Shown here: positions 8,488 to 56,076 of the stretch, one piece after another
How positions within the stretch are numbered: the first letter of the stretch is position 1
Layout: each line of letters opens with the position of its first letter
Source of the DNA: a virus
Length of the DNA stretch: 56,076 nucleotides
Strand: one strand, 5' to 3'
IMG/VR virus record: IMGVR_UViG_3300027996_002398
Span: 1 to 56,076 of that record
The notes under the pieces: generated by a model
What the model was told of the DNA's origin: nothing
Databases searched by the model: none
What the model saw: the letters and a program-made list of their open reading frames with translations, nothing else
Made by a program: the position numbers and the translations under genes

Positions 8488-9219
8488 ATGAAAATATTAA
8501 AACCAGGTGAAGAGGGTCACGGATTCTTAGTAGAGTACGATTCTGGATTTGTATCATCTGAACTAACCTGTCAAGATGGGGTATGTTCAAACCATAATTT
8601 AATTAACGAATTTAAATCAGGATTAGTTTTAGGTCAAGACGGTTCTTTACCAGACAAAATAGAAATATACGCTGTACTCCAAAAATGGGGTGTAGAAAAT
8701 AAAAACGGGAGAGTCTATCCCGAAGAAATCCTTAAAAGAGAGGCAAAAAGATACCAAGAATTTATTGACATGGGAACTTCACTAGGTGAGTTAAATCACC
8801 CTGAGTCTTCTATTATTGATGCTGACCGTGTATCACATATGATTTCAGAAATTTGGTGGAATGGTAGAACACTTATGGGTAAAATGGAATTGGATACAAC
8901 TCCGGGTTATCTTAAGACAGGGATTATTTCATCTGTGGGTGACAAAGTTCTAAATATGATTAGAAAGGGTTGGACTGTAGGTATATCGTCAAGGGGTGTT
9001 GGCTCACTTAAAAATGAGGGTGGTAAGAATATAGTACAAGACGACTTTGAGTTAATTTGTTGGGATATTGTTACATCACCATCAACACCAGGTTCTTGGA
9101 TTTCTACAAGTGAAAAAGATTTAACCCCATACATGGAATCAACAAAAGATAATAAAACAAAATTAGTTATTGAGAATGGTTCTAATTTACTAGATAATTT
9201 AAATAAATTCTTATTGTAA
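8488..9219 (+). CDS. gp21: Prohead maturation protease (gp21-like serine protease)
   Basis: A 243-aa protease that trims scaffold, capsid and internal head proteins during prohead maturation. The T4 gp21 (family S77) pattern is clear: catalytic His104 in GELNHPESS, the segment DADRVSHMISEIWW, substrate-channel residues in MELDTTPGYL, catalytic Ser in GISSRGVGS (Ser168/169) and Asp193 in ICWDIVTSPSTPGSW. T4 gp21 cleaves after (L/I)-x-E, and many small proteins encoded next to this gene carry I-K-E or L-x-E near their N-terminus. The stop overlaps the start of the next gene (TAATG). Confidence 0.93.
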   Translation: MKILKPGEEGHGFLVEYDSGFVSSELTCQDGVCSNHNLINEFKSGLVLGQDGSLPDKIEIYAVLQKWGVENKNGRVYPEEILKREAKRYQEFIDMGTSLGELNHPESSIIDADRVSHMISEIWWNGRTLMGKMELDTTPGYLKTGIISSVGDKVLNMIRKGWTVGISSRGVGSLKNEGGKNIVQDDFELICWDIVTSPSTPGSWISTSEKDLTPYMESTKDNKTKLVIENGSNLLDNLNKFLL

Positions 9220-9530
9220 TGAAAAAGAAAGTGATTAAATTAACAGAACAAGACTTAGAAAAGTTAGTTAAGAAAATTATCAAAGAAGATAGTGAAGAGT
9301 GGATGAAAAATACTTATAACCAAAATTTTCATACAGAAGAAGAAATGAATCGTGTATGGGAAGATTTAAATGAGTTGGATAATGATAAAATTTTTGATTT
9401 AATGGAATTAACTTTTAATGAATCTAAGATGAGTGTTGAGGATTTTGTTAATAACCTACCAACACGATTTGTTTACGATTACAACTACATTGTTTCTGTT
9501 TTAAAACAAATACAAGAAGAAGGTATATGA
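9219..9530 (+). CDS. Small tagged protein (shared N-terminal I-I-K-E tag)
   Basis: A 103-aa acidic protein translationally coupled to the protease gene (TAATG overlap). Residues 1-24 are a basic amphipathic helix containing LTEQDLEKLVKKIIKED, nearly identical in pattern to the start of the gene at 10220. The remainder is acidic and helical (WMKNTYNQNFHTEEEMN...) with no catalytic motif. Tag conservation next to the protease suggests an internal head protein cleaved after I-K-E. The tag and position are seen; the role is inferred. Confidence 0.75.
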   Translation: MKKKVIKLTEQDLEKLVKKIIKEDSEEWMKNTYNQNFHTEEEMNRVWEDLNELDNDKIFDLMELTFNESKMSVEDFVNNLPTRFVYDYNYIVSVLKQIQEEGI

Positions 9531-9573
9531 AATAATCGGTGGTCAAAAATTTAATGATTAAAACAAAAATATT

Positions 9574-10137
9574 ATGAAAAACATTATATCAGAAAGTGAA
9601 TTAAAAAGAATGGTTAAAAAAGTTGTTAGAGAAGAAAAACTAAATAACATTAACGAAGATAGAACTGACTTTGAAATGAGTGGTGCTAGAAGTCGTAAAG
9701 ATTATACATCAAACCCAAGAGAAAGAGATATCTCTTCTATGTTTGGTAAATACGCTGATGATGTTCCACCAATAGTAATTAGATACTTAAGAAAAAATCC
9801 TGAAGCTATCGTAAAAAGATTGTTTAAAATCTATGGTGAAAAAATATTTGATTATCTGCCACAACAAGAAATGGAAGAAGAGTATGATTCTTATATGGCT
9901 GATGTTCACGAAAAAAAAGATTGGATTAAAAACGCAATTGAGGAACCTGGTTCACTTAGAAAAAAAATGGGACTTAAAAAAGACGAAGAATTAACATCTT
10001 CTGATATTAGAAAAAAGATATCTCAATTAAAAAAGAAAGACAAAGACCCTAGTAAGAAAGGTGTTCAAGGTTTAGGTAAAAGAGACTTAAAAACTTATAG
10101 ACAATTAAATTTAGCTAAAACTTTACGTGGATTGTAA
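9574..10137 (+). CDS. Small tagged protein, 187 aa
   Basis: The N-terminus (ISESELKRMVKKVVREEK) is a diverged copy of the shared tag, here ending V-V-R-E-E. The body is basic and helical, with LRKNPEAIVKRLFKIYGEKI and a Lys-rich segment SQLKKKDKDPSKKGVQG before the C-terminus, which could bind DNA non-specifically. No enzymatic motif is seen. Its position between the prohead protease and the scaffold gene suggests an internal or core head protein. It is preceded by an A-rich leader without a Shine-Dalgarno sequence. Confidence 0.72.
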   Translation: MKNIISESELKRMVKKVVREEKLNNINEDRTDFEMSGARSRKDYTSNPRERDISSMFGKYADDVPPIVIRYLRKNPEAIVKRLFKIYGEKIFDYLPQQEMEEEYDSYMADVHEKKDWIKNAIEEPGSLRKKMGLKKDEELTSSDIRKKISQLKKKDKDPSKKGVQGLGKRDLKTYRQLNLAKTLRGL

Positions 10138-10146
10138 GTATTTATA
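10138..10146 (+). promoter_or_regulatory. Late-promoter-like motif GTATTTATA
   Basis: A variant copy with G in the first position, located at the stop codon of the previous gene and 73 nt before the ATG at 10220. Placement is looser than at other sites, so this may be chance. Confidence 0.3.
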
Positions 10147-10219
10147 TATAGGTTGTGCGGCTTGTAACAACTTAATTAAAAAGTAACAAGTAAATAAATA
10201 AAATATAAAAATTAAGAAA

Positions 10220-10540
10220 ATGAAAAAAAGAATTGTTAGATTAACTGAATCAGATTTAGAGAATTTGGTTAAACGTATTATTAAAGAAGAAGACGAAGGC
10301 CAAGGTGATGACCAAAGTGGTGGTGAAGAAACAATAGATATTAAGGATGTCCAAAATTTTATGGCTATGTTAGACCAATACTTTTTAAATAAAGCGGCGG
10401 GAAGAACAGCTTCAAAAAAAATCAATACAAGCCTTGAAAGAGCAGGTTTAATTGCTGCTATGATTGAGAAATTTGGTGTTGACTTGGCTTTGGTGAATAA
10501 AGCCAGAACAATGTTAAAACAAGGTGGGTACGGCAAATGA
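10220..10540 (+). CDS. Small tagged protein, 106 aa
   Basis: The N-terminus contains LTESDLENLVKRIIKEED, the clearest match to the tag of the gene at 9219 (LTEQDLEKLVKKIIKED). An acidic Gly/Gln-rich linker (about residues 26-38) follows. The C-terminal 65 residues form a compact helical domain (FMAMLDQYFLNKAAGRTASKK...ALVNKARTMLKQGG) that I do not recognise. The stop overlaps the next ATG (ATGA), so the two are translationally coupled. An internal head protein role is inferred from the tag and location. Confidence 0.75.
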   Translation: MKKRIVRLTESDLENLVKRIIKEEDEGQGDDQSGGEETIDIKDVQNFMAMLDQYFLNKAAGRTASKKINTSLERAGLIAAMIEKFGVDLALVNKARTMLKQGGYGK

Positions 10541-11046
10541 ACATCCGTAAAATCATAAAGGAAGAACTTATTAAAGAGGTGGGTGGTTACGATGACCAAA
10601 GAGTTATGGCTAAACATGCTGGAACAACAATGGGTGCACTATCTACTAGTCATAATGATTTAACTAATTTATTATCAGGGTTAGCTAATTCTATTATGGA
10701 TGGAGCTAATAAAAACGATATTAGTGATTCTTTAATGGAAACCTCAAAAGAGATTAATTTTTTTATCGATATTATTAATGGTGTTATAAGTGAAGTTATG
10801 GAAGACGATGTTATTGTTAAAGCTAAAGAAACTATTTCTTCACTTAAAGTTTTTAAAAGAAAAATAGATATTCTTTCTAACTTTTCAGACGCTATGGGTA
10901 ATGATGAAGAATTTATTGAAAGAGTTAAACTTTTATTAATGGACTTAATACCTGCTTTAGAAGAGTATGGTAAACAACTTAGAATTACCAATAAAATGTT
11001 TGGTGACAGGTTTCAGTCGTTTGGTGCTGGATTTAGTCCTAATTAA
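10537..11046 (+). CDS. Small tagged protein, 169 aa, helical
   Basis: It begins MNIRKIIKEELIKEVGG, the short version of the shared tag with I-K-E at residues 7-9. The rest is strongly helical with heptad-like spacing (ISDSLMETSKEINFFIDIINGVISE and a later LLMDLIPALEEYGKQL), and it may oligomerise. There are no Cys residues and no catalytic signature. It is translationally coupled to the gene before it. A structural head-interior or core function is plausible but inferred only from context. Confidence 0.72.
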   Translation: MNIRKIIKEELIKEVGGYDDQRVMAKHAGTTMGALSTSHNDLTNLLSGLANSIMDGANKNDISDSLMETSKEINFFIDIINGVISEVMEDDVIVKAKETISSLKVFKRKIDILSNFSDAMGNDEEFIERVKLLLMDLIPALEEYGKQLRITNKMFGDRFQSFGAGFSPN

Positions 11047-13231: not shown

Positions 13232-15007
13232 ATGGGATATTTATTAAAATCTGGAGAAGTTGGTAACATCGGACTTAAGCACCAAAAAGCTGTTCGTGAA
13301 GCAACTGTCTCTAAATGGAACGACCTAGGATTCTTAGAAGGATTAGAAGGTCACGTAAGAGAGAACATCGCTTTGTTGTATGAAAACCAAGCATCAGTTC
13401 TTATCAATGAAACTACAGACGCTGGTTCGTCTGGTTCTTTTGAAACTGTAGTTTTTCCTATCGTTAGAAGAGTTTTCTCTAAATTATTAGCTAACGATAT
13501 AGTATCAGTACAAGCTATGAACTTACCGATAGGTAAATTGTTCTACTTTGTACCTAAAGCGTCTGAAAGAATAGGTGACGGTAGTTCAGCTTTATCAACA
13601 CATGGTGAGCCTGTTGTAACAAATTGTGTTGACGCAGGTTGTGTAACAACAACTTACTCTGATTGTGCTAAGAATCTTTATGACAGATTCTACAATGATG
13701 AGTTTTTTGACCAATCAAAAGGTGCTTTTACAGCACAAACATCTTCACCAACTCCTGTAATCTGGACATCTTGTACTACAGGTGATGAATTTACTGATGG
13801 TGTTTCTCCATTCGCGGGTGACGGTTCTGTTAGAACTCAAATCGTTAAATTATGTGGATTCAATTCATCTGGAGCTGGTAGATTAACAGGTCCTAACGGA
13901 AACGAAATGGATACTGAAGAATTTTTAGCTTCTTTAGACCTTACAGTTGATGGGGCAATAGTAGATAAAGACAATAAAACAATTTTAGCGTCAGGTGATA
14001 AAGTTCCTTTCAGAGTTGTTACTCAGAGATATGGAAAAGGTATTGTAAACTACGGTGACATTTGTTCACCTGAAGGTTGTATTTATCTTGAAGCTGATTT
14101 AACTCACCCTGTGTGTGTTGAGTGTGGTGATGGTACTTTCGATGGTTACATTGGAGCATCATCAGGAACAACTGCTATCGTTCCTGGAGTTGGTGTAGCT
14201 GACTTAGGTGGTGTTGATATTGTAGCTGTTTGGAGACAATATAGTTCATTAGAACTTGAATCTCAAATGGGTGAAGTTTCTTTCGAATTAGATTCTGTAA
14301 CGGTATCTGTAACTGAAAGAAAATTAAGAGCTACTTGGACTCCTGAATTAGCACAAGATGTATCGGCTTTCCATAACATCGATGCTGAAGCTGAATTAAC
14401 AGCATTATTATCTGAGCAAGTTGCTGCTGAAATTGATAGAGAAATCTTAAGAGACCTTAGAAAAGGTGCAGCATGGCAATTACGTTGGGATTATAACGGT
14501 TATAAAAGATTACCACAATCTAACGCTTACACTCAAAAAGAGTGGAACCAAACGTTAGTAACGGCAATCAACCAAATCTCAGCTCAAATTCACAAGTCTA
14601 CATTAAGAGGTGGAGCTAACTTTATCGTGGTATCTTCTGAAGTATCAGCTATTTTTGATGATTTAGAGTACTTCCACGTATCAAACGCTTCTCCTGAGCA
14701 AGACAACTATAACATGGGTATTGAGAGAGTAGGTTCTTTATCAGGTAGATATACTGTATACAGAGACCCTTACGCTCCAGCTAACTCAGTATTAGTAGGT
14801 CATAAAGGTAAATCATTGTTAGATACTGGGTACATTTACGCACCTTACGTACCATTACAATTGACACCTACAATGTATAACCCGTTCAACTTCGTACCTG
14901 TTAAAGGTATTATGACACGTTACGCTAAGAAATTTGTTAATAACAGATTCTACGGACAAGTTAATGTTGATGGATTACGTACATTTGACGTGAGAGAATT
15001 AAGATAA
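13232..15007 (+). CDS. gp23: Major capsid protein (gp23-like)
   Basis: A 591-aa protein that forms the hexamers of the head shell. The N-terminal region has the gp23 signature: WNDLGFLEGLEG, ENIALLYENQAS, FPIVRRVFSKLLANDIVSVQAMN and PIGKLFYFV. The C-terminal part has the family's LEYFHVSNASPEQ, GRYTVYRDPYAP and YIYAPYVPLQLTPT. It is longer than T4 gp23 (521 aa). A Cys-rich insertion at about residues 125-310 (CVDAGC, CAKNLYD, ICSPEGC, VCVECGDG) probably corresponds to an expanded surface domain. Codon use is less AT-biased at third positions than in its neighbours, typical of a highly expressed gene. It is followed by a strong terminator. Confidence 0.97.
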   Translation: MGYLLKSGEVGNIGLKHQKAVREATVSKWNDLGFLEGLEGHVRENIALLYENQASVLINETTDAGSSGSFETVVFPIVRRVFSKLLANDIVSVQAMNLPIGKLFYFVPKASERIGDGSSALSTHGEPVVTNCVDAGCVTTTYSDCAKNLYDRFYNDEFFDQSKGAFTAQTSSPTPVIWTSCTTGDEFTDGVSPFAGDGSVRTQIVKLCGFNSSGAGRLTGPNGNEMDTEEFLASLDLTVDGAIVDKDNKTILASGDKVPFRVVTQRYGKGIVNYGDICSPEGCIYLEADLTHPVCVECGDGTFDGYIGASSGTTAIVPGVGVADLGGVDIVAVWRQYSSLELESQMGEVSFELDSVTVSVTERKLRATWTPELAQDVSAFHNIDAEAELTALLSEQVAAEIDREILRDLRKGAAWQLRWDYNGYKRLPQSNAYTQKEWNQTLVTAINQISAQIHKSTLRGGANFIVVSSEVSAIFDDLEYFHVSNASPEQDNYNMGIERVGSLSGRYTVYRDPYAPANSVLVGHKGKSLLDTGYIYAPYVPLQLTPTMYNPFNFVPVKGIMTRYAKKFVNNRFYGQVNVDGLRTFDVRELR

Positions 15008-15057: not shown

Positions 15058-15069
15058 ATGCTTTGTGTG

Positions 15070-15078
15070 ATATTTATT
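15070..15078 (+). promoter_or_regulatory. Late-promoter-like motif ATATTTATT
   Basis: Full form GATATTTATT (15069-15078), 3 nt before the preferred ATG at 15082 and 11 nt after the capsid terminator. Confidence 0.45.
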
Positions 15079-15081
15079 AAT

Positions 15082-15369
15082 ATGAATCTGAAAAGAATTA
15101 TAAAGGAAGAATTAAATAAATCTGAAGACGAATGGGAATGGGCTAAAACAACCCAACCAATAGAACTTGAAAACCCTAAAGATTGGGTTGGTCGGACTTT
15201 TAAAAAAGCTAATAATTCAACCCAACAATCTTTTACTGTGGTTGGTTTAGATGATAATGGTAATATTTCTTTGGTTCATAACCATATGGGTGGTGAGTAT
15301 TACGGTGTATCTACAAATCCTCAGGCTATAATAAAGTTTATTAGTGATGGTACATGGGAATGGATTTAA
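15082..15369 (+). CDS. Small tagged protein with one W-rich module
   Basis: A 95-aa protein. The start at 15082 (MNLKRIIKEELNKSE) is preferred over an upstream ATG at 15058, whose extra residues come from the terminator and motif region. The N-terminus is the short tag with I-K-E. The body begins DEWEWAKTTQPIELE and ends IIKFISDGTWEWI. This outline recurs twice in the next gene, so a repeated small domain is present. Its last 10 nt overlap the next gene. Function is unknown; a tagged internal head protein is the best guess. Confidence 0.7.
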   Translation: MNLKRIIKEELNKSEDEWEWAKTTQPIELENPKDWVGRTFKKANNSTQQSFTVVGLDDNGNISLVHNHMGGEYYGVSTNPQAIIKFISDGTWEWI

Positions 15370-16043
15370 AAAAAATAATAATAGAAGAGATTGATGACTT
15401 TGTTTGGGCTAAGGGTAAAATAGAATATCCAATAGATTTCCTTATCGGTAAAAAAATATATTGGAGGCGAAACAATTTGGGTGACCTTGAAGATGCTGGG
15501 TATACTATGCAAGAATTAAATAAAGAAGATTTAAAATTGGGTACTATTAGACGAAGAAATGGTTGGGTACTAGTCAAACCGATTGGTGAAAATGTTAGAA
15601 TAAAAATGGAAAACAACCTCCTTGACGACACATACCCAATATCTGACGTTGAGGATTATGTTAGATTAGGTATTTGGGTTGTTGAAGATGATAACGGTAG
15701 ACTTTTAAACGAATCTGATGATTTACAATGGATAAAAGATATTGAACCTGAAATAACACAAAAATCAATCCCAACGTATTATAATAAACCTTTTTATTGG
15801 TATGACAATGGCAAACCCGTGATTGAATGGGGGATGCCTAGAATTTATTGGTTAGAAGGTTGGAAGCCGTATTCTAGGGTGGGTGAAGAACAAATGTCTC
15901 TATTTTGTTACAAGGATTTATCTGTATCTAGTGAGATATACAACAGTGAATGTACCGAATTTTTGAATAAAACAATAGTTAACTATATTAAAAGGGGTAT
16001 AATAGTATTCCAACCACAGTTAAGTGATATTAAAAATGATTAA
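15360..16043 (+). CDS. Tagged protein with two W-rich modules
   Basis: A 227-aa protein. The start at 15360 (MDLKKIIIEEIDDF) matches the tag pattern (I-I-I-E-E); an ATG two codons upstream at 15354 is also possible. Module 1 starts DDFVWAKGKIEYPIDF and closes with VEDYVRLGIWVVE. Module 2 starts DDLQWIKDIEPEITQ and closes with VNYIKRGIIVFQ. Both resemble the single module in the preceding gene, suggesting duplication and fusion. The stop overlaps the stop of a convergent minus-strand gene (16040-16043). The function is unknown. Confidence 0.72.
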   Translation: MDLKKIIIEEIDDFVWAKGKIEYPIDFLIGKKIYWRRNNLGDLEDAGYTMQELNKEDLKLGTIRRRNGWVLVKPIGENVRIKMENNLLDDTYPISDVEDYVRLGIWVVEDDNGRLLNESDDLQWIKDIEPEITQKSIPTYYNKPFYWYDNGKPVIEWGMPRIYWLEGWKPYSRVGEEQMSLFCYKDLSVSSEIYNSECTEFLNKTIVNYIKRGIIVFQPQLSDIKND

Positions 16044-30966: not shown

Positions 30967-30968
30967 CT

Positions 30969-34378: not shown

Positions 34379-34379
34379 T

Positions 34380-34967: not shown

Positions 34968-34978
34968 AATATTTTTTT

Positions 34979-36685: not shown

Positions 36686-36687
36686 AA

Positions 36688-37551: not shown

Positions 37552-37554
37552 TTA

Positions 37555-38145: not shown

Positions 38146-38151
38146 AATAAA

Positions 38152-40657: not shown

Positions 40658-40660
40658 ATA

Positions 40661-45736: not shown

Positions 45737-46362
45737 TAACTTAATTTTTTTTTAAGTTCTTGTTTATATTCTTGTGGTATATCAGTAATGTCCATACTCA
45801 ATAAATAATTTAAAATTACAGCCTTTTCTTCACCACTTGTACTATTTTTTTCAATAATATCTTTTAGAGCTCCCACTTTTCTAATTAAAATTGGGTTGGT
45901 GTCTCTAATTGTCTCTAAATCACCTATACCATTTAGTGTGAAATCCTTAGTTTTCTTATCTACAAATTCTTTATCAAAATCTTTTTTTGTAAATATATCC
46001 TCTATTAAAGAGTTCATTTTATTTTTACCATTTTCCTTAATTTTTATTGGTTTAGGTGTCCCTATATTTGGTTTTTGAATATTTGACTTTCTTTTTGGTC
46101 TAGTCCCTCTTGTTTTTTTTGGTTCTGGTATTTCTTCTTTATCTTCCGGTGGTAATTCAACACCATCATTAGTATCATCACTCTCACCATAATATATACG
46201 ACCAAAATTGTTATACATACTTAATCCTTGTCTTGTCATATGTACAAAATCGTCAGTTGTAATTTTAGAAGTGGTCATGTTGTTGTCTTGGTCTATCTTA
46301 GCTCCACCCTTTATACGACTACCATCTTTGTTAACCAACTCCGATATTAAAATTACGTTCAT
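45736..46362 (-). CDS. Hypothetical protein, 208 aa, head of late-type operon
   Basis: Begins NVILISELVNKDGSRIKGGA. Middle sections are basic and Pro/Lys-rich (RGTRPKRKSNIQKPNIGTPK), likely disordered. The C-terminal half is helical (MNSLIEDIFTKKDFDKEF, LKDIIEKNSTSGEEKAVIL). A late-type motif lies 13 nt upstream, so this gene and the four or five following ones form a late operon that ends at the terminator at 43852. The function is unknown. Confidence 0.68.
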   Translation of the reverse strand: MNVILISELVNKDGSRIKGGAKIDQDNNMTTSKITTDDFVHMTRQGLSMYNNFGRIYYGESDDTNDGVELPPEDKEEIPEPKKTRGTRPKRKSNIQKPNIGTPKPIKIKENGKNKMNSLIEDIFTKKDFDKEFVDKKTKDFTLNGIGDLETIRDTNPILIRKVGALKDIIEKNSTSGEEKAVILNYLLSMDITDIPQEYKQELKKKLS

Positions 46363-46375
46363 AATTACTTTTTTA

Positions 46376-46384
46376 AATAAATAT
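46376..46384 (-). promoter_or_regulatory. Late-promoter-like motif ATATTTATT (minus strand)
   Basis: Reads GATATTTATT on the minus strand, 13 nt before the ATG at 46362. Confidence 0.55.
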
Positions 46385-46431
46385 CTAGTAATTATGTTAG
46401 TTTAATTTTATTTTTTTTAAAATCTGAAGTT

Positions 46432-49308
46432 TTATGCACTAATTGTCTCACCTTTAGAATCTAAAGACTTTTTAGAATCACTAAACCTATCTTTAATCAT
46501 ATAATCAGGTGATACCTTTTGTGATTCCCAAAACACCAACTCTTCATCACTAGGTGTCATTAACTCTTCTAGGTTATCTTGGTCACCTTCTTTAGACGCA
46601 ATACCAGAAACTAACTCTAATTCACTTCTAGTAAAAAATTGTTTTTCTGTTGGGTCAGTGATTAATAAAGACTCTCTAATATGTGTCCTAAAAACAACCA
46701 ATAAAGGTTCTACTTTTTTATTAAAAGCCGATAAATATTTTGGTACATTATACTCACCCTTTAGATTTGGGTTCTTTTCCATCTGTTCGGAACTAATTAA
46801 ATAAGAGTTAAAAACTAAAATTCCTTCAGGTGGGTCCGTTTTTCTTTTTCTAACCTGTATATCACCGTGTGATTTTCTAGAACCATTATTAATATAAAAT
46901 ATATTATCACCTAATTGTGGCTCAACACCTTCTTTTATCAATAACTCCATGTGAGCTTGTCTTGGCAGTGGTAGTTTGTTTTTATTTAACCCTCTATTTT
47001 TATATTGCTTAATAGTTTTTTTAACTTTTGAGTTGTTGGCTATTTCGGATAAAGGTATATCCATATTATAAATTCTTTCAAGGTAAGAATTATAGTAATC
47101 TACAAACCCTTTACCATCACCGTTTAACAACATTTTTATACCATTATTTAAAAAAGTTTTAATATATTTTTGGATTGTTTTACCTTTTATAGTATTACCA
47201 GTTAATTTAATCTTACCATTTGGCTTTAGTGTTGCGTAGTTTTTACGAGATAAATTAATTGTTGCTGGCCAAATCTCATCAATATCTAGACCCATAGCTC
47301 CATACATAAATCTATCGTTATATTCAGAAACATCAGCTTCAATTCCCTTATATTCCTTCCCTTCTTCAACAAATTTATGGAAACCACGACCAATGTAAGT
47401 GTGGTCACTAACGTTTTTACCATAAGAAAAGTTTACACCATCCGTATCTAAAACTAATGGTTTATAGTCTTTATCCATAAAAAACTGAATCATATGTCTT
47501 AGATATTGTCTGCCTGTACAGGTAATCATCTCACCAATATTAATATCACCCCAAGGAAATATATAGGGAGCTGAAATAGAACCAAAAGCTGAGTTGTTGA
47601 AAATTTTAATCGGTAATTGTTTTTTATCAAACTTACTACCCAAAAAGTTGTTACCTTCTTTATAATATTTACCGGCAAGATGTTTGTATTCATTACGTGT
47701 ATCCAAAAGGTACTGTAACATAGCTTCCAAAGCCCCTGAAACATCTACTTCAGGGAATACGTTATGGGTTAGTTGTATTGAAGGGTAAAGTGATGCGTAA
47801 TCAAATTTAGCAATATTAACACTATAACCTAAATTTAACAATCTAGACAAACCACCAACAAAATCTCTTTTTGGTTGTGTATCGGGTAATGCTAAATTAT
47901 TCTCATACGACCAAGCCATCATTAATAACTTCCACATTGTGGCCGTACCCATTGTTATAGACCTACCAAAGTTGGTTGGTACTAGAGCCGCTGTTAAAAA
48001 TCCAGCTTGAGCATAGGTATCATCAACTTGTTCTGTTTCTAAAAGGTCATCATTAAGATATTCCCTTAATAAAAATCTACCATCAACAATTTCCCACTTA
48101 TCTTCATAACCATCAATAATCTTACTATCAACTTCTTTAGGTTCTGGTTTAACACCATCCAAACCATACCATTGACCTGAAGTTGGGTTATAATTAAAAT
48201 CTTTGTTCTCATTCCAAATTTTACCTAATTTAGCACCATCAATATAAACTCTATTGGGCCTTTCTAATCCTGCTTCTTGAGCTATATACTTCAGTCTACC
48301 ATTTTGTAAACTAGAATTTAAAGCCATAGCTTGTCTAACTCTATGGTATGTATCCATGATATTATACCCCCACATTGTTGTTTGATAATAATCTTCTATC
48401 TCAGCACCCATTTTTAATGTTGCTGGTTTTCTAGCTAAACCTACCATTGGGTGTTTAGTTTTTATTACATCGGATAATATGTTTATCGAAGTTATTCTAT
48501 TATCTTTTTTATTCCTTCTAATATTTGTCTCCGACATACCCAATATGTCCATTCTACCAAAAATATAATTCCAATCAAAGTTTTCCGAGTTATACCCAAC
48601 AATAATGGAAGGTTCTAATTCGTGTATAATTTTAAATAAATCTTCATACATCTTCTTTTCACCTTCCTTACTATAATTACCGTCTTTACCATAAGCTGTT
48701 AACAACTTTTTAAAACCACGATTATCTTTAACCCCAACCATAAACGAATGTCCTGTTTCAGGTGTTAAACTAGTTGTCTCAATATCAAATGTTAGTTTAT
48801 GTACGTCAGTATAATCTTCATAACCTTTAAATAACCTTTTACCTGTTTGAACCATGAACTGTTCTACGGGTGGTAAAATCTGTACTAATTTTCTATCCCT
48901 ATCCCAAGGGTTTATACCCCCTCTTTTTAAAAAGTTAACCAAATCACGATAAGTACCTGTTGTTTTAACAATATACTTATAACCATCTTCTAACCTTTCA
49001 TTATCACCTGTTTTTAGTTTCTCCGTATAAATACCAAATTCTTTAGCCTTTCTTTTTATTTTTTCAACATCATCATCATAAAAGCCACTCCCTTTTAATG
49101 ATTTTGTCCAACAAAAAGGTGTAAACTTTTGGACTTTAATTCTTTTACCCTTCTTAGGGTCATCAATAACAATATATACTTTGTTTGTTTCGTCTATTGA
49201 CCAATCTCCTGTTTGGTCTAACTCTATAGATACGATATATTTTTCATCGTCATGCCCTTCTAAAAACTTTTTAATATCCTCTGGGGTAGCTTTTTCTATC
49301 TTACTCAT
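46432..49308 (-). CDS. gp43: Family B DNA polymerase (gp43-like)
   Basis: A 958-aa replicative polymerase with proofreading. A GTG at 49344 would add 12 residues, but the ATG at 49308 (MSKIEKATPEDIKKF) is more natural. The exonuclease domain shows FDIETTSL (174-181, Exo I) and IIVGYNSENFDWNYI (Exo II). The polymerase domain shows DYASLYPSIQ (503-512, motif A), KIFNNSAFGSI (568-578, motif B) and LDTDGVNFS (620-628, motif C). T4 gp43 is 898 aa. All catalytic Asp are present. The gene lies between a late operon and the DHH-sigma gene, with a terminator upstream. Confidence 0.96.
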   Translation of the reverse strand: MSKIEKATPEDIKKFLEGHDDEKYIVSIELDQTGDWSIDETNKVYIVIDDPKKGKRIKVQKFTPFCWTKSLKGSGFYDDDVEKIKRKAKEFGIYTEKLKTGDNERLEDGYKYIVKTTGTYRDLVNFLKRGGINPWDRDRKLVQILPPVEQFMVQTGKRLFKGYEDYTDVHKLTFDIETTSLTPETGHSFMVGVKDNRGFKKLLTAYGKDGNYSKEGEKKMYEDLFKIIHELEPSIIVGYNSENFDWNYIFGRMDILGMSETNIRRNKKDNRITSINILSDVIKTKHPMVGLARKPATLKMGAEIEDYYQTTMWGYNIMDTYHRVRQAMALNSSLQNGRLKYIAQEAGLERPNRVYIDGAKLGKIWNENKDFNYNPTSGQWYGLDGVKPEPKEVDSKIIDGYEDKWEIVDGRFLLREYLNDDLLETEQVDDTYAQAGFLTAALVPTNFGRSITMGTATMWKLLMMAWSYENNLALPDTQPKRDFVGGLSRLLNLGYSVNIAKFDYASLYPSIQLTHNVFPEVDVSGALEAMLQYLLDTRNEYKHLAGKYYKEGNNFLGSKFDKKQLPIKIFNNSAFGSISAPYIFPWGDINIGEMITCTGRQYLRHMIQFFMDKDYKPLVLDTDGVNFSYGKNVSDHTYIGRGFHKFVEEGKEYKGIEADVSEYNDRFMYGAMGLDIDEIWPATINLSRKNYATLKPNGKIKLTGNTIKGKTIQKYIKTFLNNGIKMLLNGDGKGFVDYYNSYLERIYNMDIPLSEIANNSKVKKTIKQYKNRGLNKNKLPLPRQAHMELLIKEGVEPQLGDNIFYINNGSRKSHGDIQVRKRKTDPPEGILVFNSYLISSEQMEKNPNLKGEYNVPKYLSAFNKKVEPLLVVFRTHIRESLLITDPTEKQFFTRSELELVSGIASKEGDQDNLEELMTPSDEELVFWESQKVSPDYMIKDRFSDSKKSLDSKGETISA

Positions 49309-49372
49309 AAATTTAGATTTTTGGTACGGGTTAATCTTACCCACTAGTTAATAATATTTTAATTATAGGCAT

Positions 49373-49408
49373 AAAAAAACACATCGTAAATAATCAGATG
49401 TGTTTTTT
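49373..49408 (-). terminator. Intrinsic terminator of the DHH-sigma gene
   Basis: Perfect 10-bp stem AAAACACATC (49376-49385) with GATGTGTTTT (49397-49406), loop of 11 nt; a T-run (complement of 49373-49379) follows on the minus strand. It separates the DHH-sigma gene from DNA polymerase, which therefore needs its own promoter. Confidence 0.85.
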
Positions 49409-49412
49409 ATTT

Positions 49413-51362
49413 TTATCTACCTAAAAGCCCTTTTATTTTATTTTTCGCTTTCATTAAATTTGTTTTTGATGTACTTGTGGATACACCTAATTCTTTAGCT
49501 ATTTCGTTATGGGTTAAACCATCTAAATAGTAAAGTTCAAATGTTTTTTTGTATGCTGGTGATAGTTGTGGTAAAACTTTTGTGATATCACTTATAGAAA
49601 GATTTTCTTCTTCTTCTTCGTAGTCTTCATCACTATTATCATACCTAGAAAAGTCAAATCCATCTTCATTATCAACAAAAGATAATTTATTTTTTCTTAA
49701 TTCATCCAAGATACTATTATTAATAACCCTTCTTACCCAACCAGCTAATGAACCAGTTTCTTCGTATTTATGTAAATTTTTATGAACTTTTATAAATCCA
49801 TTTTGACAAAAATCTTCTGCTTTACTTACATCGTTTGTGTATTTCATGCAAACTTGTTTCAACATTTTGTCCCACATAGTAGAGTATATTTCTTGAAACT
49901 CCTTAACTTCTTTTAAAATAGTTTTTTTTGTTACTATATTTTCTTGTACTTTATCTTTATCTATTTTTTCTTTTAATTTATTAATAAGACTATCTTTTAA
50001 CTTTTTTAAGAAATCATTACCACCTTTACCAAAATACATCATACCAGATATGTTAGTAATACATTTGTGTCCACCACTATTCGCTTGAACCATATCCCAA
50101 CCTGTTACGGATAATAATTTAAGTGCCTTCCTTTCTCTAACACTTAAGTCACTATAAGGTTTGTCCATAACTTTTTTAATTGCACTTTGCCATCTCTCAA
50201 CCGTATAGTCCTCTGGTGAACCTTTAGGTGTTTTTTCTACACCACTAACACCACCACTAGACTCTTCAAACATGGCCATCATATCTTTAAACGTAAAACC
50301 AACAGATTCGGAGTTAAATGATTTATGTTTTTCAGCAAAATATTTAATAGTATCTACAGTTATTTTTTTAGATTTTAATTCTGACTCATATTCCTTTAAA
50401 ACTTCTTGAGCTATTTCACCTAAATTAACACCTTTTAATTCTCTACTAGCCTTAAAAGGGTTACAAGATGCCTGTAATAAACCTAGAGGCCAAGCTATAA
50501 CTAAAAAATTAGCTTCAGGGTAATTTTTAAAAGGTACGTATCTATCATAAGCACCAGGTTTAAATAAAGCTCCACCGCCATATTGTGATATAATACCGTA
50601 ATCTTCTATATATTCTACATTTTCACTAGATTTTTGTTTTAGAATATAGACATCTAGATTTGTTTTCATAACATCAGGTGAAACATAACCATCTTCTTTA
50701 GCTTGTTTAACTATATTTAAATAAATATTTAAAAGAGATGGTGTTGAGTTCATTACTAGATTTTCTAAAAATTTAGGTTTATTTTTATAGGCCAACAATA
50801 ACTTATTGGTCACTAAAGCCATAATTTTTTTATTTCTAGAAAGTTCTTTTTCTCTATCTAACTGAAAAACGTAAGTCATAACATCTTCAGGTTTAATTCC
50901 CATGTTAACAAAATCAGCCGAATCAACAGTAGAAATCATTTTAATGTCGTTATTTGGGAATATGTCGGAAGGTGAGACTATCTGTGAAATTGTCTCAACG
51001 TTTGAACGAGAAGACCTAAAAGAAGTTGAAGCGTTTTTTTCAGCACCAACCTGTTTATCGTGATGGTCAGTGTGTATAACAAACATTGGTTTACCATGAG
51101 CGAAATCAACTAAAACTGGCATGATATCACCTTTAGCTGATGGTTTTTTAATAGCGAACTCTTTATCACCATACTGTACTATTTCAGAATCAACAACCTT
51201 TATTCCGTTATTCTCCAAATAATTTTTCATTGCCAAAGCCGTGGTAACCCCGTCTAAATCTTGATGGAAATATATTTTTGCTTTAGAATATCTTTTAGAT
51301 AGTTCACGTATATTACGTAAACCACCTTCATTTAATAACCCCTCATTTAAAATAATGTTCAT
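49413..51362 (-). CDS. DHH phosphoesterase fused to an ECF-type sigma factor
   Basis: One 649-aa open frame carries two unrelated activities. Residues 25-150 show the DHH-family motifs: HQDLDGVTT (33-41), VDF (85-87), TDHHD (98-102) and VDSAD (146-150). NSGGH (428-432) looks like the C-terminal DHHA1 GGH element. This family hydrolyses small nucleotides (nanoRNA, cyclic dinucleotides, pAp). Residues 505-560 match sigma region 2 (CMKYTNDVSKAEDFCQNGF, then GSLAGWVRRVINNSILDELR). An acidic linker (575-588) follows, and 595-648 match region 4 (YYLDGLTHNEIAKELGVSTS). The start MNIILNEGLLNEGG resembles the tag of small head proteins. A late-type motif precedes the gene and a terminator follows it. 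Confidence 0.85.
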   Translation of the reverse strand: MNIILNEGLLNEGGLRNIRELSKRYSKAKIYFHQDLDGVTTALAMKNYLENNGIKVVDSEIVQYGDKEFAIKKPSAKGDIMPVLVDFAHGKPMFVIHTDHHDKQVGAEKNASTSFRSSRSNVETISQIVSPSDIFPNNDIKMISTVDSADFVNMGIKPEDVMTYVFQLDREKELSRNKKIMALVTNKLLLAYKNKPKFLENLVMNSTPSLLNIYLNIVKQAKEDGYVSPDVMKTNLDVYILKQKSSENVEYIEDYGIISQYGGGALFKPGAYDRYVPFKNYPEANFLVIAWPLGLLQASCNPFKASRELKGVNLGEIAQEVLKEYESELKSKKITVDTIKYFAEKHKSFNSESVGFTFKDMMAMFEESSGGVSGVEKTPKGSPEDYTVERWQSAIKKVMDKPYSDLSVRERKALKLLSVTGWDMVQANSGGHKCITNISGMMYFGKGGNDFLKKLKDSLINKLKEKIDKDKVQENIVTKKTILKEVKEFQEIYSTMWDKMLKQVCMKYTNDVSKAEDFCQNGFIKVHKNLHKYEETGSLAGWVRRVINNSILDELRKNKLSFVDNEDGFDFSRYDNSDEDYEEEEENLSISDITKVLPQLSPAYKKTFELYYLDGLTHNEIAKELGVSTSTSKTNLMKAKNKIKGLLGR

Positions 51363-51377
51363 TTTTTATCTTTTTTA

Positions 51378-51386
51378 AATAAATAT
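51378..51386 (-). promoter_or_regulatory. Late-promoter-like motif ATATTTATT (minus strand)
   Basis: Reads GATATTTATT on the minus strand, 15 nt before the ATG of the DHH-sigma gene at 51362. Confidence 0.55.
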
Positions 51387-51427
51387 CACTACTTTACATT
51401 CAGTTCAATTAATTTATCTAAATATTG

Positions 51428-51637
51428 TTAAGCTTTATTCTCCTCTAACTCTATAAGTTTGTCTAGATAAGTTTTTGCTTTTTTTAAATCCTCTATACCG
51501 TTCTTATCTTTCCATCTGGTTACATATTTAACAATATTACCTTCAAAGAAATCTAATTTATGCGAATAAGCATAATCCCACATCTCAACCCCTTTATTAT
51601 AATGTTTGGGGTGTACAACCCTTTCTTTACTCTTCAT
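51428..51637 (-). CDS. DUF3310 protein
   Basis: A 69-aa protein; the ATG at 51637 (MKSKERVVHPKHYNKGVEMW) is used rather than a TTG upstream. It has the DUF3310 pattern of phage proteins: HPKHYNKG, then DFFEGNIVKYVTRWKDKNGI with the K-Y-x-x-R-W core, and a C-terminal helix DLKKAKTYLDKLIELEE. Function is not established, though some members are annotated as nucleotide-kinase-like. A TAAATTTG on the minus strand (complement of 51647-51654) could be its -7 element, but no -33 TTG is seen at the usual distance. Confidence 0.9.
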   Translation of the reverse strand: MKSKERVVHPKHYNKGVEMWDYAYSHKLDFFEGNIVKYVTRWKDKNGIEDLKKAKTYLDKLIELEENKA

Positions 51638-51656
51638 ACGTTTTTTCAAATTTATT

Positions 51657-51686
51657 TTGATTGTTTAGTTAAAAGTATTATATTTG
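51657..51686 (+). promoter_or_regulatory. Bacteroidota-type promoter (plus strand)
   Basis: TTG (51657-51659), a 19-nt spacer and TATATTTG (51679-51686), the same arrangement as at 17248-17277. The start codon of the downstream small gene is at 51700, leaving a leader of only about 7 nt. Confidence 0.75.
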
Positions 51687-51699
51687 TATAAAAAAATCA

Positions 51700-51864
51700 A
51701 TGACAATAAAATTAAAATCAACACACACACCAAAAGAAAGAACTAACGAACCTCATTCTAGACCAAATATGGTTTATATTTTTGACTATTGGAAAAAAGC
51801 GGGTAATAATTTTAATTATAGTTTGTACCTTAAAATTTTAGAAGCCAAATCCAAATCATTGTAA
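51700..51864 (+). CDS. Small plus-strand protein, 54 aa, with host-type promoter
   Basis: ATG at 51700 and TAA at 51862-51864. The product starts MTIKLKSTHTPKERTNEPHS and ends LYLKILEAKSKSL; the middle contains NMVYIFDYWKKAGNNFNYSL. It is basic and short, with no recognised domain. The frame fills the gap between two minus-strand genes and ends exactly next to the SNF2 stop. An exact Bacteroidota-type promoter precedes it. This is the only plus-strand gene between 18.6 and 53.8 kb, so an early host-takeover protein is a reasonable guess. Confidence 0.6.
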   Translation: MTIKLKSTHTPKERTNEPHSRPNMVYIFDYWKKAGNNFNYSLYLKILEAKSKSL

Positions 51865-53688
51865 TTAAAAATGGCCTTTTAACATTTGTTTAAATAAATC
51901 GTTCCCAATATCCATAGAAACATGTTCATCACCAATAACAGTATCAATAATCTTCCTTTTCTTTTCCAATATCTTATAAATCATTTCATCAATAGTACCT
52001 ACAGCTATAGGGTAATAAACGTTGGTTGTTGAAGTACTTCCTATCCTATGAGCTCTGTCTTCTGCTTGAGCATGATTTGATGGTACAAAGTCTAAATCAT
52101 TCATAATAACGGTCTCAGCTTTGGTTAGGGTTATTGCGGTACCGGCTGAAATAAGGTTACCCACAAACACTTTTACATTATCATCTTCTTGAAATCTGTC
52201 TATAGAGTTTTGTTTATTGTTAGCGTTCATTTTACCGTTATGACCAACAGCTAATCTACCAAAGTGGTCCATTAAAGCGTCAAAAGAATGGGTAAAGTTT
52301 GTGAAAATAATAACTTTTTGACCGTTTTCAATAGCTTGTTCAGCTAATTCAATTGTTTGTTTAGTTTTCTCCAAAGCTAAATACTTTCTTAAAACAATTA
52401 ACTCTACCATATGTCTACCTGTGCCTAACCTTTTACCTTCAGATTTAGCCCATTCTAAATACTCTTCAAAAACTCTGTGGTATTGACCCATGTCATCTAT
52501 TTCAACGTAATAAGGAGCAACTATCTTTGGTGGTAAATCTAAATGGTCTTCTTTTTTTCTCCTAAGAATTAAATTTTTAGTTCTATTATGTAACTCCTCT
52601 AGGTTAGAAGCTCCATCCGTAATCCATATGTCCCTATAACCACCTGATTTTAACTTCTTTTTAAATTTTTTACCATCACAATACCTAAAAGCAAATTGTT
52701 TCCAACTAGAGGTAACTGGTGAGTCACAAATATTTAATAGATTAAAGAAGTCCATAGGCCTATTAGCTATGGGTGTTCCCGTTAATAACCAACGCCTTTT
52801 TATTTTTTCAGTAATTTTATTCATTATCTTGGTTCTATTGGCTTTTGGATTTTTAACCATGTGTGCCTCATCCATAATAACTAAGTCAAATTCTTCATCC
52901 ATTAAATGTCTATGTATTTCATAGTCTTTATAATTTTTTCTACCATCAGTAATTGTGTGAAAATTTTTTAAAATATCATAATTAATTATTGTATATTTTT
53001 TAGGGTTCCAATGACCAGATTTAACTATAGAAATGTCTTCTTCTGGTATGTAAGCGTTAAGTTCCCTAAACCAATTTATTTTAGCGTTAGCAGGGCAAAC
53101 AACCAATATTTTCTTCGCTCCAGATTCAATGGAAGCTATGGTTGACATTAAGGTTTTGCCTAAACCCATGTCATCACCTAGTATTCTATTATTTTTACTT
53201 AATAAAAACTTAACACCTGTTTCTTGGTGAGGAAATACTCTCCACCCTCTTTTATCCCTTTTTTGATACTCATCAAAATCAACCTCAACCTCAACTTCAA
53301 CATCTAATAAATTTTCAGATATTTGTGACTTAGAAACATAAAAAAGTGGTGAATACTTTTGATTTTTAAATACCTTACCTTTTACGTGGTAACTTTTTTC
53401 TGTTTCACCTAAAACCCATTCTACCATTACTTTTTCTGGTATATGATTGAGTTCAAATTTATTTTGTAATTGTTTACCTAAAAACTCGTTTATTTCTATT
53501 ATTTTATTTATTTCTAAAGGTTCTCTATCAGAATTTAATTCAATGTATTCTGCAACACTAGGTGTGATAGGGAAAGAACCCTCCTTTTCTAATCTATTTT
53601 TTAATGAAATTAAATATTCATTATTACCACCATACTCTTCAAGTTTGACTAGAGCCTTTCTGTTTTTCAACTTATTAATATCTAACAT
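51865..53688 (-). CDS. SNF2-family helicase
   Basis: A 607-aa superfamily-2 ATPase of the SWI2/SNF2 type. N-terminal 140 residues are a separate charged domain. The motor shows FPHQETGVKFLL (motif Q-like, 152-163), DDMGLGKT (172-179, motif I), VCPANAKINW (Ia), MDEAH (272-276, motif II), WLLTGTPIANRP (III) and a C-terminal RecA domain with VIIFTNFTHSFDALM, GTAITLTKAETVIM and QAEDRAHRIG (motif VI). These enzymes remodel DNA-protein complexes or anneal and migrate DNA; this could replace the T4 UvsW or Dda role in recombination and repair. Whether it is expressed early is unknown. Confidence 0.94.
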   Translation of the reverse strand: MLDINKLKNRKALVKLEEYGGNNEYLISLKNRLEKEGSFPITPSVAEYIELNSDREPLEINKIIEINEFLGKQLQNKFELNHIPEKVMVEWVLGETEKSYHVKGKVFKNQKYSPLFYVSKSQISENLLDVEVEVEVDFDEYQKRDKRGWRVFPHQETGVKFLLSKNNRILGDDMGLGKTLMSTIASIESGAKKILVVCPANAKINWFRELNAYIPEEDISIVKSGHWNPKKYTIINYDILKNFHTITDGRKNYKDYEIHRHLMDEEFDLVIMDEAHMVKNPKANRTKIMNKITEKIKRRWLLTGTPIANRPMDFFNLLNICDSPVTSSWKQFAFRYCDGKKFKKKLKSGGYRDIWITDGASNLEELHNRTKNLILRRKKEDHLDLPPKIVAPYYVEIDDMGQYHRVFEEYLEWAKSEGKRLGTGRHMVELIVLRKYLALEKTKQTIELAEQAIENGQKVIIFTNFTHSFDALMDHFGRLAVGHNGKMNANNKQNSIDRFQEDDNVKVFVGNLISAGTAITLTKAETVIMNDLDFVPSNHAQAEDRAHRIGSTSTTNVYYPIAVGTIDEMIYKILEKKRKIIDTVIGDEHVSMDIGNDLFKQMLKGHF

Positions 53689-53744
53689 AACTTATTAAAT
53701 ATAAAAACAATTTTTAAAAAATAAACCAAATAGAGGATTACTAA

Positions 53745-53753
53745 ATATTTATA
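53745..53753 (+). promoter_or_regulatory. Late-promoter-like motif ATATTTATA
   Basis: 12 nt before the ATG at 53766, in the divergent gap (53689-53765) between the SNF2 gene and the neck/tail module. Nothing else distinct is seen in this gap. Confidence 0.5.
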
Positions 53754-53765
53754 ATAAAAGATTTT

Positions 53766-54281
53766 ATGTCAAGTAAGAAAAGATTACCAATAAATCGTAT
53801 GGGCAAATTTTATGATTATATAGATTTTGGTCTAGAAAACGAAATGGCACGTGAATATTTAGAGGGTGATATAAACTTTACTGTGATACTTTTTAGGGTC
53901 GATAGAATTAAAAGTCAAACGGATGATGTTTATGGTGAATCTGATTCTGAAGAAATAAGGTTTCATCCACCAATTGAATTAAAAGTTAGACCTTCTTTAG
54001 AAGAGTCTCAATCAAAAGCTTATTCTGAAGGGTATGGTAGATATGAAGATTACGGTAACTTAGTTTTTACTGTTTTTGAAGACCAATTAAAAGAATTAAA
54101 TGTAGACATTAGTTATGGTGATTACATTGGTTATCCTGATAAAGAGGATAATATAAAATATTTTACAGTATCTAATGACGGTAAAATAAATAGTGATAAC
54201 CAAAAGACAAGGGTGGGGTACAAACCTTATTATAGAAAAATAACTTGTGTTACAGCTGATGAAGATGAATTTAACGGATAA
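53766..54281 (+). CDS. Putative neck/head-completion structural protein, 171 aa
   Basis: It begins SSKKRLPINRMGKFYDYIDF and continues with IRFHPPIELKVRPSLEESQS, then YEDYGNLVFTVFEDQLKELN and DISYGDYIGYPDKEDNIKYF, a beta-rich pattern with a basic N-terminus. I recall similar proteins near neck genes of T4-like phages, but cannot fix a T4 number. It starts the right-hand plus-strand module behind a late-type motif and is followed closely by a second structural gene. Confidence 0.65.
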   Translation: MSSKKRLPINRMGKFYDYIDFGLENEMAREYLEGDINFTVILFRVDRIKSQTDDVYGESDSEEIRFHPPIELKVRPSLEESQSKAYSEGYGRYEDYGNLVFTVFEDQLKELNVDISYGDYIGYPDKEDNIKYFTVSNDGKINSDNQKTRVGYKPYYRKITCVTADEDEFNG

Positions 54282-54289
54282 AATTAGAT

Positions 54290-55330
54290 ATGGCATTACC
54301 TAAGAAAATAAAAAAAGATATAGACATAAAAGTTGTTAACCCAGAATCTGGACCACAGAGATGGGTTGACCAGTTTTTAGAACAAAATAAACAATTTTTA
54401 CCTAGGTCAGTAGATTTTGCTGATTTAGATGCGGGACTGGTTGGTTTTGTTAATGACGATTTAGGTTTTGAGTTAAAGGGTGAAAAGGTTCCTGTCCATT
54501 TTTTAACTTTACAAAGATGGAATGAATTCACTAAACTTTGGCCTAATACAGATAAATATAAAAATATAAAAATTCCTTTTGTTTCTGTTGTAAGAAGACC
54601 TAACCCCGAAACAGGAACTAATCCGGCCGATTTTAAAATACCAGTTAGAAAAAACTTTCCTTATATGCAAATACCTATTTGGAATGGTAGTCGTAATGGG
54701 GCTGATATTTATGGTATACCTAACCCTGTTGGTGTTGATTTAACGTATACTGTTAGGTTTTTCTCTTTTAGAATGAGGGAACTTAATAAGTTACACCAAA
54801 AAGTGTTACAAACTTTTGCTTCAGCTCAAGCTTATGTCAATATAAAAGGCCATTATTTTCCTATATTATTAGAAAGTATTGGTGATGAAAGTCAGGTAGA
54901 TGATTTAGAAGGGAAAAGATTTTATGTACAAACCTATGAAATGAAATTACAAGGATATTTAGTAGATGAAGAAGAGTTTGATGTTAAACCAGCTATAAGT
55001 AGGATGTTTGTAACCACAGAAATAGAAACCAAAAGAACTAAACCTGTCGCTAGGTTTATTAAAGATGATACTGAAAATGATAAGTCTTTGAAGGTTGTGG
55101 TACAATTTTTACCTGGAGCACCAACCACATTAAGATTTTCTACAGATAATAAGACAAACTTTTCTTCTGTTGGTACGGATAATATTACAACCTATACAAT
55201 ACACTTAAATGGTAGTCCTGTATCGGTACCATTTGTGGCTGAACCAACTGACCAGATAATTATTAACATAGTTAAAACAGATTCTAATAAAATATCTGAA
55301 ATAAATTTAAGAGGATTAATTATAATATAA
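54290..55330 (+). CDS. Putative neck/tail structural protein, 346 aa
   Basis: A helical start (ALPKKIKKDIDIKVVNPESG), then RWVDQFLEQNKQFLPRSVDF and a long mixed region (VSVVRRPNPETGTNPADFKI). A segment LTYTVRFFSFRMRELNKLHQ (about 150-170), followed by ILLESIGDESQVDDLEGKRF and YVQTYEMKLQGYLVDEEEFD, resembles tail-terminator or neck proteins that contact the portal or tail tube. The C-terminal 100 residues form a beta domain (LKVVVQFLPGAPTTLRFSTD). It lies between the neck-like gene and the tail fibre. The T4 equivalent is uncertain. Confidence 0.65.
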   Translation: MALPKKIKKDIDIKVVNPESGPQRWVDQFLEQNKQFLPRSVDFADLDAGLVGFVNDDLGFELKGEKVPVHFLTLQRWNEFTKLWPNTDKYKNIKIPFVSVVRRPNPETGTNPADFKIPVRKNFPYMQIPIWNGSRNGADIYGIPNPVGVDLTYTVRFFSFRMRELNKLHQKVLQTFASAQAYVNIKGHYFPILLESIGDESQVDDLEGKRFYVQTYEMKLQGYLVDEEEFDVKPAISRMFVTTEIETKRTKPVARFIKDDTENDKSLKVVVQFLPGAPTTLRFSTDNKTNFSSVGTDNITTYTIHLNGSPVSVPFVAEPTDQIIINIVKTDSNKISEINLRGLIII

Positions 55331-55331
55331 G

Positions 55332-56076
55332 ATGAGTAATAAAAATTGTGGTCCAGATATAGTAAAATATTTTGTTGTTGAGCCATCTGGTGCTGGTGGA
55401 GCTACTACAGGTGCAACGGGTAATTTCTTTGTATGTTCAGGTACAACCTTTTTAAGTACAATATCTGGTTGTACTAATGGTGTAGATTTTAATGGTAATA
55501 CATTTTATAACAATAGTGATGTATTTTTTAATGGTGTTATAACAGCTTGTACAGGGATACATACATCTAACATTTACGGATGTTCACCAATCACAGTACA
55601 CGATGAGTTAATATTATTAAATAAATTAACATTAAGTGCTGTAACACAAGACGACACTTTAACCCAAATACTAGGTAGAGATAGTAGTACAGGTGAAGTT
55701 AAATATAGGTCCGTTGAATCTATTATAACAGGCGCGACATCACAAGATACATTTGTTAGTGGTGGTACATATAACGAAGGTACGACATCAATAGATTTTA
55801 GTGGTAATAGTGTTGAGACTACGTTTAGTGTGTCATTAAGTGGTATCAGTTCTAATATTGATATCTATAATACTTATTTTGTCTCACCAACAGGTGATGA
55901 CTCAACTGCGGTTAGGGGTGATTTACATAACCCATTTAAAACAATAACTGCAGCTAGAAATAAAGTGGTTGCTGAATTATCTGCATCAACAGTAACTGGT
56001 GATACGCTTATTTATGTATATCCTGGTAACTACACCGACCAAGAAGTTCAATATGAGAATGGTAATTTCTATTTTA
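55332..56076 (+). CDS. Tail fibre / adhesin with beta-helix domain (3' end outside window)
   Basis: An ATG at 55332, 2 nt after the previous stop, opens a frame still open at the right edge (248 residues visible). The N-terminal 95 residues are Gly/Thr/Asn/Cys-rich (SNKNCGPDIVKYFVVEPSGA, then CSGTTFLSTISGCTNGVDFN), typical of fibre repeats. From about residue 180 the sequence YNTYFVSPTGDDSTAVRGDL with HNPFKTITAARNKV and TLIYVYPGNYTDQE matches right-handed parallel beta-helix repeats of receptor-binding fibres or depolymerases (DUF1565-like start). This is probably the host-recognition protein or its hub. Confidence 0.75.
   Translation, partial: MSNKNCGPDIVKYFVVEPSGAGGATTGATGNFFVCSGTTFLSTISGCTNGVDFNGNTFYNNSDVFFNGVITACTGIHTSNIYGCSPITVHDELILLNKLTLSAVTQDDTLTQILGRDSSTGEVKYRSVESIITGATSQDTFVSGGTYNEGTTSIDFSGNSVETTFSVSLSGISSNIDIYNTYFVSPTGDDSTAVRGDLHNPFKTITAARNKVVAELSASTVTGDTLIYVYPGNYTDQEVQYENGNFYF

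Follow-up and report, generated by a model that had tools for sequence, protein, structure and literature searches.

A phage reading frame joining a DHH phosphoesterase to an ECF-type sigma factor, a candidate capsid-targeted polyprotein

The 56,076-nt stretch of viral DNA analysed here (IMG/VR record IMGVR_UViG_3300027996_002398, hereafter the window) encodes, on the minus strand at 49413..51362, a 649-aa protein in which a tag, a DHH/DHHA1 phosphoesterase, a linker and an ECF sigma factor follow one another in one frame. The source is a large virus with a bacterial host, probably belonging to the Bacteroidota. On balance, and with modest confidence, we read the fusion as a late-made, capsid-targeted cargo polyprotein that the phage would cleave in the prohead and eject, so that a sigma factor and a nucleotide phosphodiesterase reach the cell at the outset of infection. 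In this scheme, a T4-like phage would synthesize the polyprotein late, and the N-terminal tag would steer it into the prohead core in the manner of the T4 capsid-targeting sequence. The prohead protease would take off the tag and probably cut the linker after E485, leaving DHH phosphoesterase and free ECF-type sigma in the mature head. Both would be ejected together with the DNA. In the next cell, the sigma would capture the host's RNA polymerase for early promoters of the phage, and a nucleotide would be the substrate hydrolysed by the DHH enzyme. Packaging, cleavage, ejection, promoter specificity and the DHH substrate are steps that we infer from the comparisons below.

The reading frame and its two domains

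The frame is uninterrupted over 649 codons, from an ATG at 51362 to a stop at 49413 on the minus strand. In the window as in relatives, it lies between the genes for an SNF2-type helicase and PolB. (In one other contig, L018, the SNF2-type helicase at 102-2123 is apparently split by an intein, with the motif DPYLLGVLLGD.) The protein opens with the predicted capsid-targeting tag (residues 1-12, 51327..51362, minus), delimited by homologue N-termini and reading MNIILNE/GLLNE/G, where a slash marks a predicted cut. The DHH/DHHA1 domain (residues about 13-465; 49968..51326, minus), placed by motifs, fold model and homologue alignment, is followed by the linker (residues 466-490; 49893..49967, minus) and the sigma factor.

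The C-terminal half is beyond doubt an ECF-type sigma factor, spanning residues ~490-645. Pfam Sigma70_r2 (PF04542) matched residues 499-559 (49686..49868, minus) with an E-value of 3e-14 and Sigma70_r4_2 (PF08281) residues 593-643 (49434..49586, minus) with 4e-13; both matches lie over the curated cut-offs, and region 3 is without a match. The NCBIfam sigma70-ECF model TIGR02937, whose cut-off is 42.9, scored 111 bits, and Foldseek matched this half to SigE, SigH and SigW. The original prediction had called for profile searches and structure models of both halves, and the sigma half passes.

Motifs and fold identify the N-terminal half as a divergent DHH/DHHA1 protein. Its profile score falls short, Pfam DHH giving an E-value of 9e-4 and 20 bits, under the gathering score of 28.1, as is likewise the case for every DHH homologue scanned. 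The identity holds despite this score because the catalytic motifs are invariant and the fold matches. Motifs I (H33-G38), II (V85-H89), III (D99HH101) and IV (T145-A149) and the GGH element (430-432) are all present, the residue ranges and motif assignment of the original prediction being correct. Among 65 aligned homologues, D35xD37G, D86, D99-H100-H101, D147 and S429-G430-G431-H432 are invariant, with one gap at D35 as the sole exception. A full-length structure model had a poor DHH core and was replaced by a domain model built on a deeper alignment (pLDDT 88, pTM 0.85), which Foldseek matched in the PDB, at probability 1.00, to DhhP of Borrelia (E 2.4e-6), PggH (6.7e-6), the TM1595 phosphodiesterase (2.7e-5) and RecJ (1e-4). 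The DHH alignment profile found no match among PDB sequences. Sigma profiles, DHH motifs and fold together bear out the predicted pairing of a DHH protein with an ECF-like sigma in one frame.

The Foldseek order puts small-nucleotide phosphodiesterases slightly ahead of RecJ. Judged by these fold neighbours, the substrate is most likely a short or cyclic alarm-signalling nucleotide; action on host nucleotide signals is the weakest link of the proposed mechanism. It has been proposed that jumbo phages use DHH enzymes against the signals of CBASS and type III CRISPR (PMC7824862). PADLOC found nothing relevant. The presence of RecJ among the neighbours, together with the helicase/PolB locus of the window and its relatives, would also suit an incidental fusion, in which a RecJ-like nuclease of the replication module and a late sigma act independently in the cell. 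We consider this unlikely. Besides the fold ranking, the RecJ equivalog TIGR00644 was not among the matches listed for the window protein and reached an E-value of only 0.004 in a homologue (L145; 0.0037, 15.6 bits against a cut-off of 396.9). Furthermore, hydrolase-fused members of the family have other gene neighbourhoods, the motif upstream of the fusion is of the structural-gene type, and an incidental fusion leaves the conserved tag and linker sites described below without account.

The DHH family comprises at least 561 members, all viral. At the search sensitivity applied, no member turned up in 84,980 genomes of cellular species, with tblastn confirmation by the first sequence only; on this ground a cellular origin was rejected.

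Recurrence of the fusion and exchange of its modules

The same fusion occurs in ~20 independent metagenome contigs (L002-L014, L086/L087, L227, L239-L241), the closer relatives having 69-84% identity in the best segments. Against four relatives, dN/dS was about 0.07-0.11 in the DHH domain, 0.2-0.6 in the linker and 0.17-0.23 in the sigma. Since these values are well below 1 in both halves and in the linker, the whole frame must be translated and under constraint. An assembly error joining two genes, which the original prediction had named as a way in which it could fail, is therefore rejected by the recurrence in contigs of different metagenomes and by purifying selection across the junction. 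Another such case, homologues always encoded as two genes, is not what we found: fused and split forms coexist, with separate DHH and sigma genes in L016, L224/G016 and G004. L016 was considered as an intron or a frameshift, and this was rejected; it has two genes, each with its own tag.

Most DHH proteins in viral contigs stand alone (~470 aa). The ECF sigma extension is found in one clade, and other branches extend into peptidoglycan-directed domains (M23, GH19, PG_binding_1, TseH-like). In L135, L137, L154 and L177, the DHH protein is joined to a domain of the type VI effector TseH family (E 3e-5 in L135, 6e-8 in L177). Within the sigma-fusion clade, fused, DHH-alone and split forms interleave in a way that needs 4-6 changes, and the fused genes occupy two loci, either helicase/PolB (window, L011, L012 and others) or beside ClpB (L013, L014, L086, L087); a single fusion event is not supported. 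The 210-kb relative G004 carries the DHH gene alone at the helicase/PolB place and a stand-alone sigma at the ClpB place, 67 kb apart. Its second, untagged sigma rules against the tagged one being the only sigma of that phage; because the contigs are fragments, a missing second sigma in the window carries no meaning.

The same sigma is joined to an unrelated N-terminal domain in L242 and L246-L254. That partner is a different tagged domain (GIFDPTGLVDIGNAISYWSQG...), perhaps pore- or pre-toxin-like, for which Pfam gave no match.

As judged from these arrangements, the DHH and sigma halves are exchangeable modules. This bears on a second alternative, a bifunctional regulator that stays unpackaged in the infected cell, with the sigma under the control of the DHH part through its sensing or hydrolysis of a small nucleotide. 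A single frame under selection across the junction would suit such a protein, as would the AlphaFold full-length model, in which a continuous helix runs from DHH to sigma with low confidence at 472-480, and the existence of a tagless clade. The halves, however, also occur alone or with other partners, even distant in one genome, the linker is variable (dN/dS 0.2-0.6) and has protease-like sites, and the stand-alone sigma always has a tag of its own. Because the halves swap partners or sit in separate genes, obligate allosteric coupling is improbable, and we give the regulator as a whole a low probability. The original suggestion that the DHH part gates sigma activity through a small nucleotide accordingly finds no support, with halves swapped or encoded separately, sometimes 67 kb apart.

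Tags, linker sites and head genes

The capsid-targeting reading draws, among other observations, on a T4-type protease, an LINE/ site in the capsid protein, tagged genes between the protease and capsid genes, and a late-type motif. The T4-type head maturation (prohead) protease, the proposed cutter of tag and linker, is encoded at 8488..9219 on the plus strand (phrog_207, E 2e-41). A gp23-like major capsid protein (13232..15007, plus) has LINE/ at residues 57-60 (13400-13411), giving a propeptide boundary LINE/T; LINE is kept in G004 and G009. Between the two genes lie four genes starting at 9219, 9574, 10220 and 10537 (9219..11046, plus), whose proteins have the same class of N-terminal tag, and two further tagged proteins (MNLKRIIKEE... 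and MGMDLKKIIIEE...) are encoded at 15058..16043, plus.

Elsewhere in the window, a glutamine synthetase-like protein is encoded within the head gene region at 6759-7868 (Pfam Gln-synt_C, E 2e-18). Between tail and replication genes, at 27212-42455, the minus strand carries a long cluster made up of glycosyltransferase, methyltransferase-like and nucleotide-sugar genes.

Upstream of the fusion ATG is the motif GATATTTATTTAAA (51374..51387, minus). Its spacing of exactly 24 nt to the ATG is conserved among members of the sigma-fusion clade at the PolB locus, and L014 and L016 share it. Related motifs precede portal, protease, terminase and tail-like genes, and from the genes behind it we infer that the motif would be a late promoter. 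The predicted late-type motif is thus upheld by its conserved position. The predicted terminator fared less clearly: past the stop codon, an inverted repeat was seen by eye (49374..49408, minus; 49374-49385/49397-49408), with a 12-bp stem with A/T ends and an 11-nt loop, and a terminator scan with a loop limit of 8 made no call there.

Among DHH homologues, the N-terminus follows the pattern M-K-K-[LI]-[IL]-[KNST]-E, then [STG]-G-[LI]-R. The motif [LIV]xE stands immediately before xG[LI]R in 70/76 distinct DHH N-termini, and five exceptions, from huge phages, read NE/E and are off by one residue. The tag of the window protein has two [L/I]xE sites, LNE7/G and LNE12/G, and is itself a weak match (6.2 bits) to a phage tag PSSM trained on seven other window proteins. 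In L013, L086, L087 and L227 the tag is absent and the protein starts MGGIRN, exactly the predicted mature N-terminus. Stand-alone sigma orthologues have a tag of their own ending in [LI]xE at the sigma start in 8/8 distinct cases (L016, L222 with a TTG start, L223, L224, L244, L255, L256, L258); examples are MEKLIKKILKEELLKE/N in G004, MRNIIKKILREE with a second site LLVE/G in L016, and MKIIISESQYKKLYKLLTE/N in L244. These counts should be read with the shortness and commonness of the [L/I]xE motif in mind. They strengthen the original idea of a tag-like N-terminus on a protein that might be packaged and injected.

The same DHH family is present in a group of huge phages (>600 kb) and relatives, comprising L082 and L083 (LR745206, LR756502), L126-L129 and L132; there the DHH tag is of another type (e.g. 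MISKYNQFINE/EVG) and the C-terminal extension differs (GQDTNE...).

By sequence, the tag is a genome-wide class. In G004, the PSSM at 12 bits or more picked out the N-termini of 30/210 proteins and no internal segment; the tagged sigma scored 20.6 bits and the second, untagged one 2.5 bits. A simple tag pattern gave 37 N-terminal sites against 7.1 expected. The late-type motif preceded 13/36 tagged genes of G004 and 32/234 others (Fisher p 0.003). This genome (L095-L105) has at least 30 tagged proteins, many with a DFDW-like motif after the tag, which are candidates for packaging and whose function is mostly unassigned; examples among the ~30 loci are 8187, 41168, 44058, 47802, 61411 and 105015. 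Separately, an exact AACCAAAACAAAG-type sequence lies immediately upstream of the ATG of nine small genes on its minus strand (45982-55656), perhaps as a translation or early promoter signal.

Sites of the same kind are found in the linkers. We found [LI]xE in 8/8 distinct DHH-sigma linkers (14 sites against 4.9 in shuffles) and in 9/10 hydrolase linkers (13 against 5.1); because the linkers are related to each other, these are not independent counts. In the window, the predicted internal site is L483-K484-E485/V486 (49908..49916, minus), placed by sigma alignment and tag homology; the glutamate aligned with E485 is invariant across sigma homologues, including the stand-alone sigma of L016. 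In the parallel fusion L246, the linker NESKLYKILTE/NVDFDKVYRELF and the complete N-terminal tag of the stand-alone L244 sigma, SESQYKKLYKLLTE/NVNFDNVYRELF, are homologous. The DHH-sigma linkers thus look like processing sites and, because of this L246-L244 homology, the fusions seem to arise by the joining of tagged cargo genes with the cut site retained.

The tag could also be real without leading to ejection. Its binding partner would then be the scaffold core or some other structure of the phage, and the tagged proteins would serve as assembly factors or be gone from the head once it is mature. The occurrence of the tag on proteins encoded beside the protease, the position of the scaffold/core genes in T4, is compatible with such a role. 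The diversity of the tagged proteins (at least 30 per genome) and the enzymes attached to them (sigma, DHH, hydrolases) are closer to the injected proteins of T4, and we rate a purely structural role as rather improbable.

Taking the capsid-targeted cargo reading further, we would give about even chances to a more general proposal: that a virion sigma and a nucleotide phosphodiesterase are injected from a cleavable polyprotein, with redirection of host RNA polymerase ahead of all phage gene expression, and that one common tag precedes a set of shuffled modules (sigma, DHH, peptidoglycan hydrolases, a pore- or toxin-like domain).

Significance and relation to known systems

Phages without an RNA polymerase of their own depend on the host polymerase for their first genes. 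Delivery of a sigma factor by the virion, if true, would be a new way for large Bacteroidota phages to start transcription. The tag and linker rule would allow candidate injected proteins to be listed from sequence in uncultured phages, at least 30 per genome here, and the widespread, virus-only DHH family may target nucleotide signals of the host during entry. In the searchable literature, outside which most subscription journals lie, neither a DHH-sigma fusion nor a virion sigma factor is described, in agreement with the original view that the pairing was new.

In comparison with ECF (group 4) sigmas such as SigW, SigE and SigH, the window sigma likewise has regions 2 and 4 only; it differs in being the C-terminal piece of a phage polyprotein, and its stand-alone relatives bear a phage tag. 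The DHH half has all the catalytic motifs and the fold of DhhP, PggH, TM1595, GdpP, NrnA and RecJ, whereas its family is virus-only, has ~11-14% identity to the known DHH/DHHA1 enzymes, is larger (~460 aa) and has conserved blocks of its own, e.g. YDRYxPFK.

Moraphages are described as large, T4-related phages of aquatic habitats, for which Bacteroidota hosts are predicted and which encode PolB, a core sigma factor and glutamine synthetase (PMC12619734). The window also encodes a glutamine synthetase; the moraphage account does not mention DHH, and its accessible part has no sigma fusion or packaging.

The closest parallel is with the packaged cargo of T4. Its internal proteins enter the head by a short N-terminal capsid-targeting sequence, and gp21, the prohead protease, cuts behind L/I-X-E (PMC9026906); those of T-even phages are diverse and have this sequence alone in common (PMC3012670). 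Judged by sequence, the fusion has the testable features of such T4-type capsid-targeted proteins: as for IPI-III and Alt, there is a short N-terminal L/I-X-E tag, a T4-type prohead protease and diverse cargo in which only the tag is conserved. The window phages differ in also fusing modules in tandem with sites in the linkers, and packaging here is predicted from sequence. In the accessible parts of the T4 accounts, no sigma or DHH enzyme is reported among the cargo (PMC9026906, PMC3012670). Alt, itself packaged, modifies host RNA polymerase (PMC9026906, PMC3012670), and in phages of the phiKZ type a virion RNA polymerase brings the transcription machinery for early genes (PMC13282480). The window phage would instead deliver a sigma for the host RNA polymerase, not a polymerase, and a virion-delivered sigma, if true, would be intermediate between T4 Alt and the phiKZ virion polymerases.
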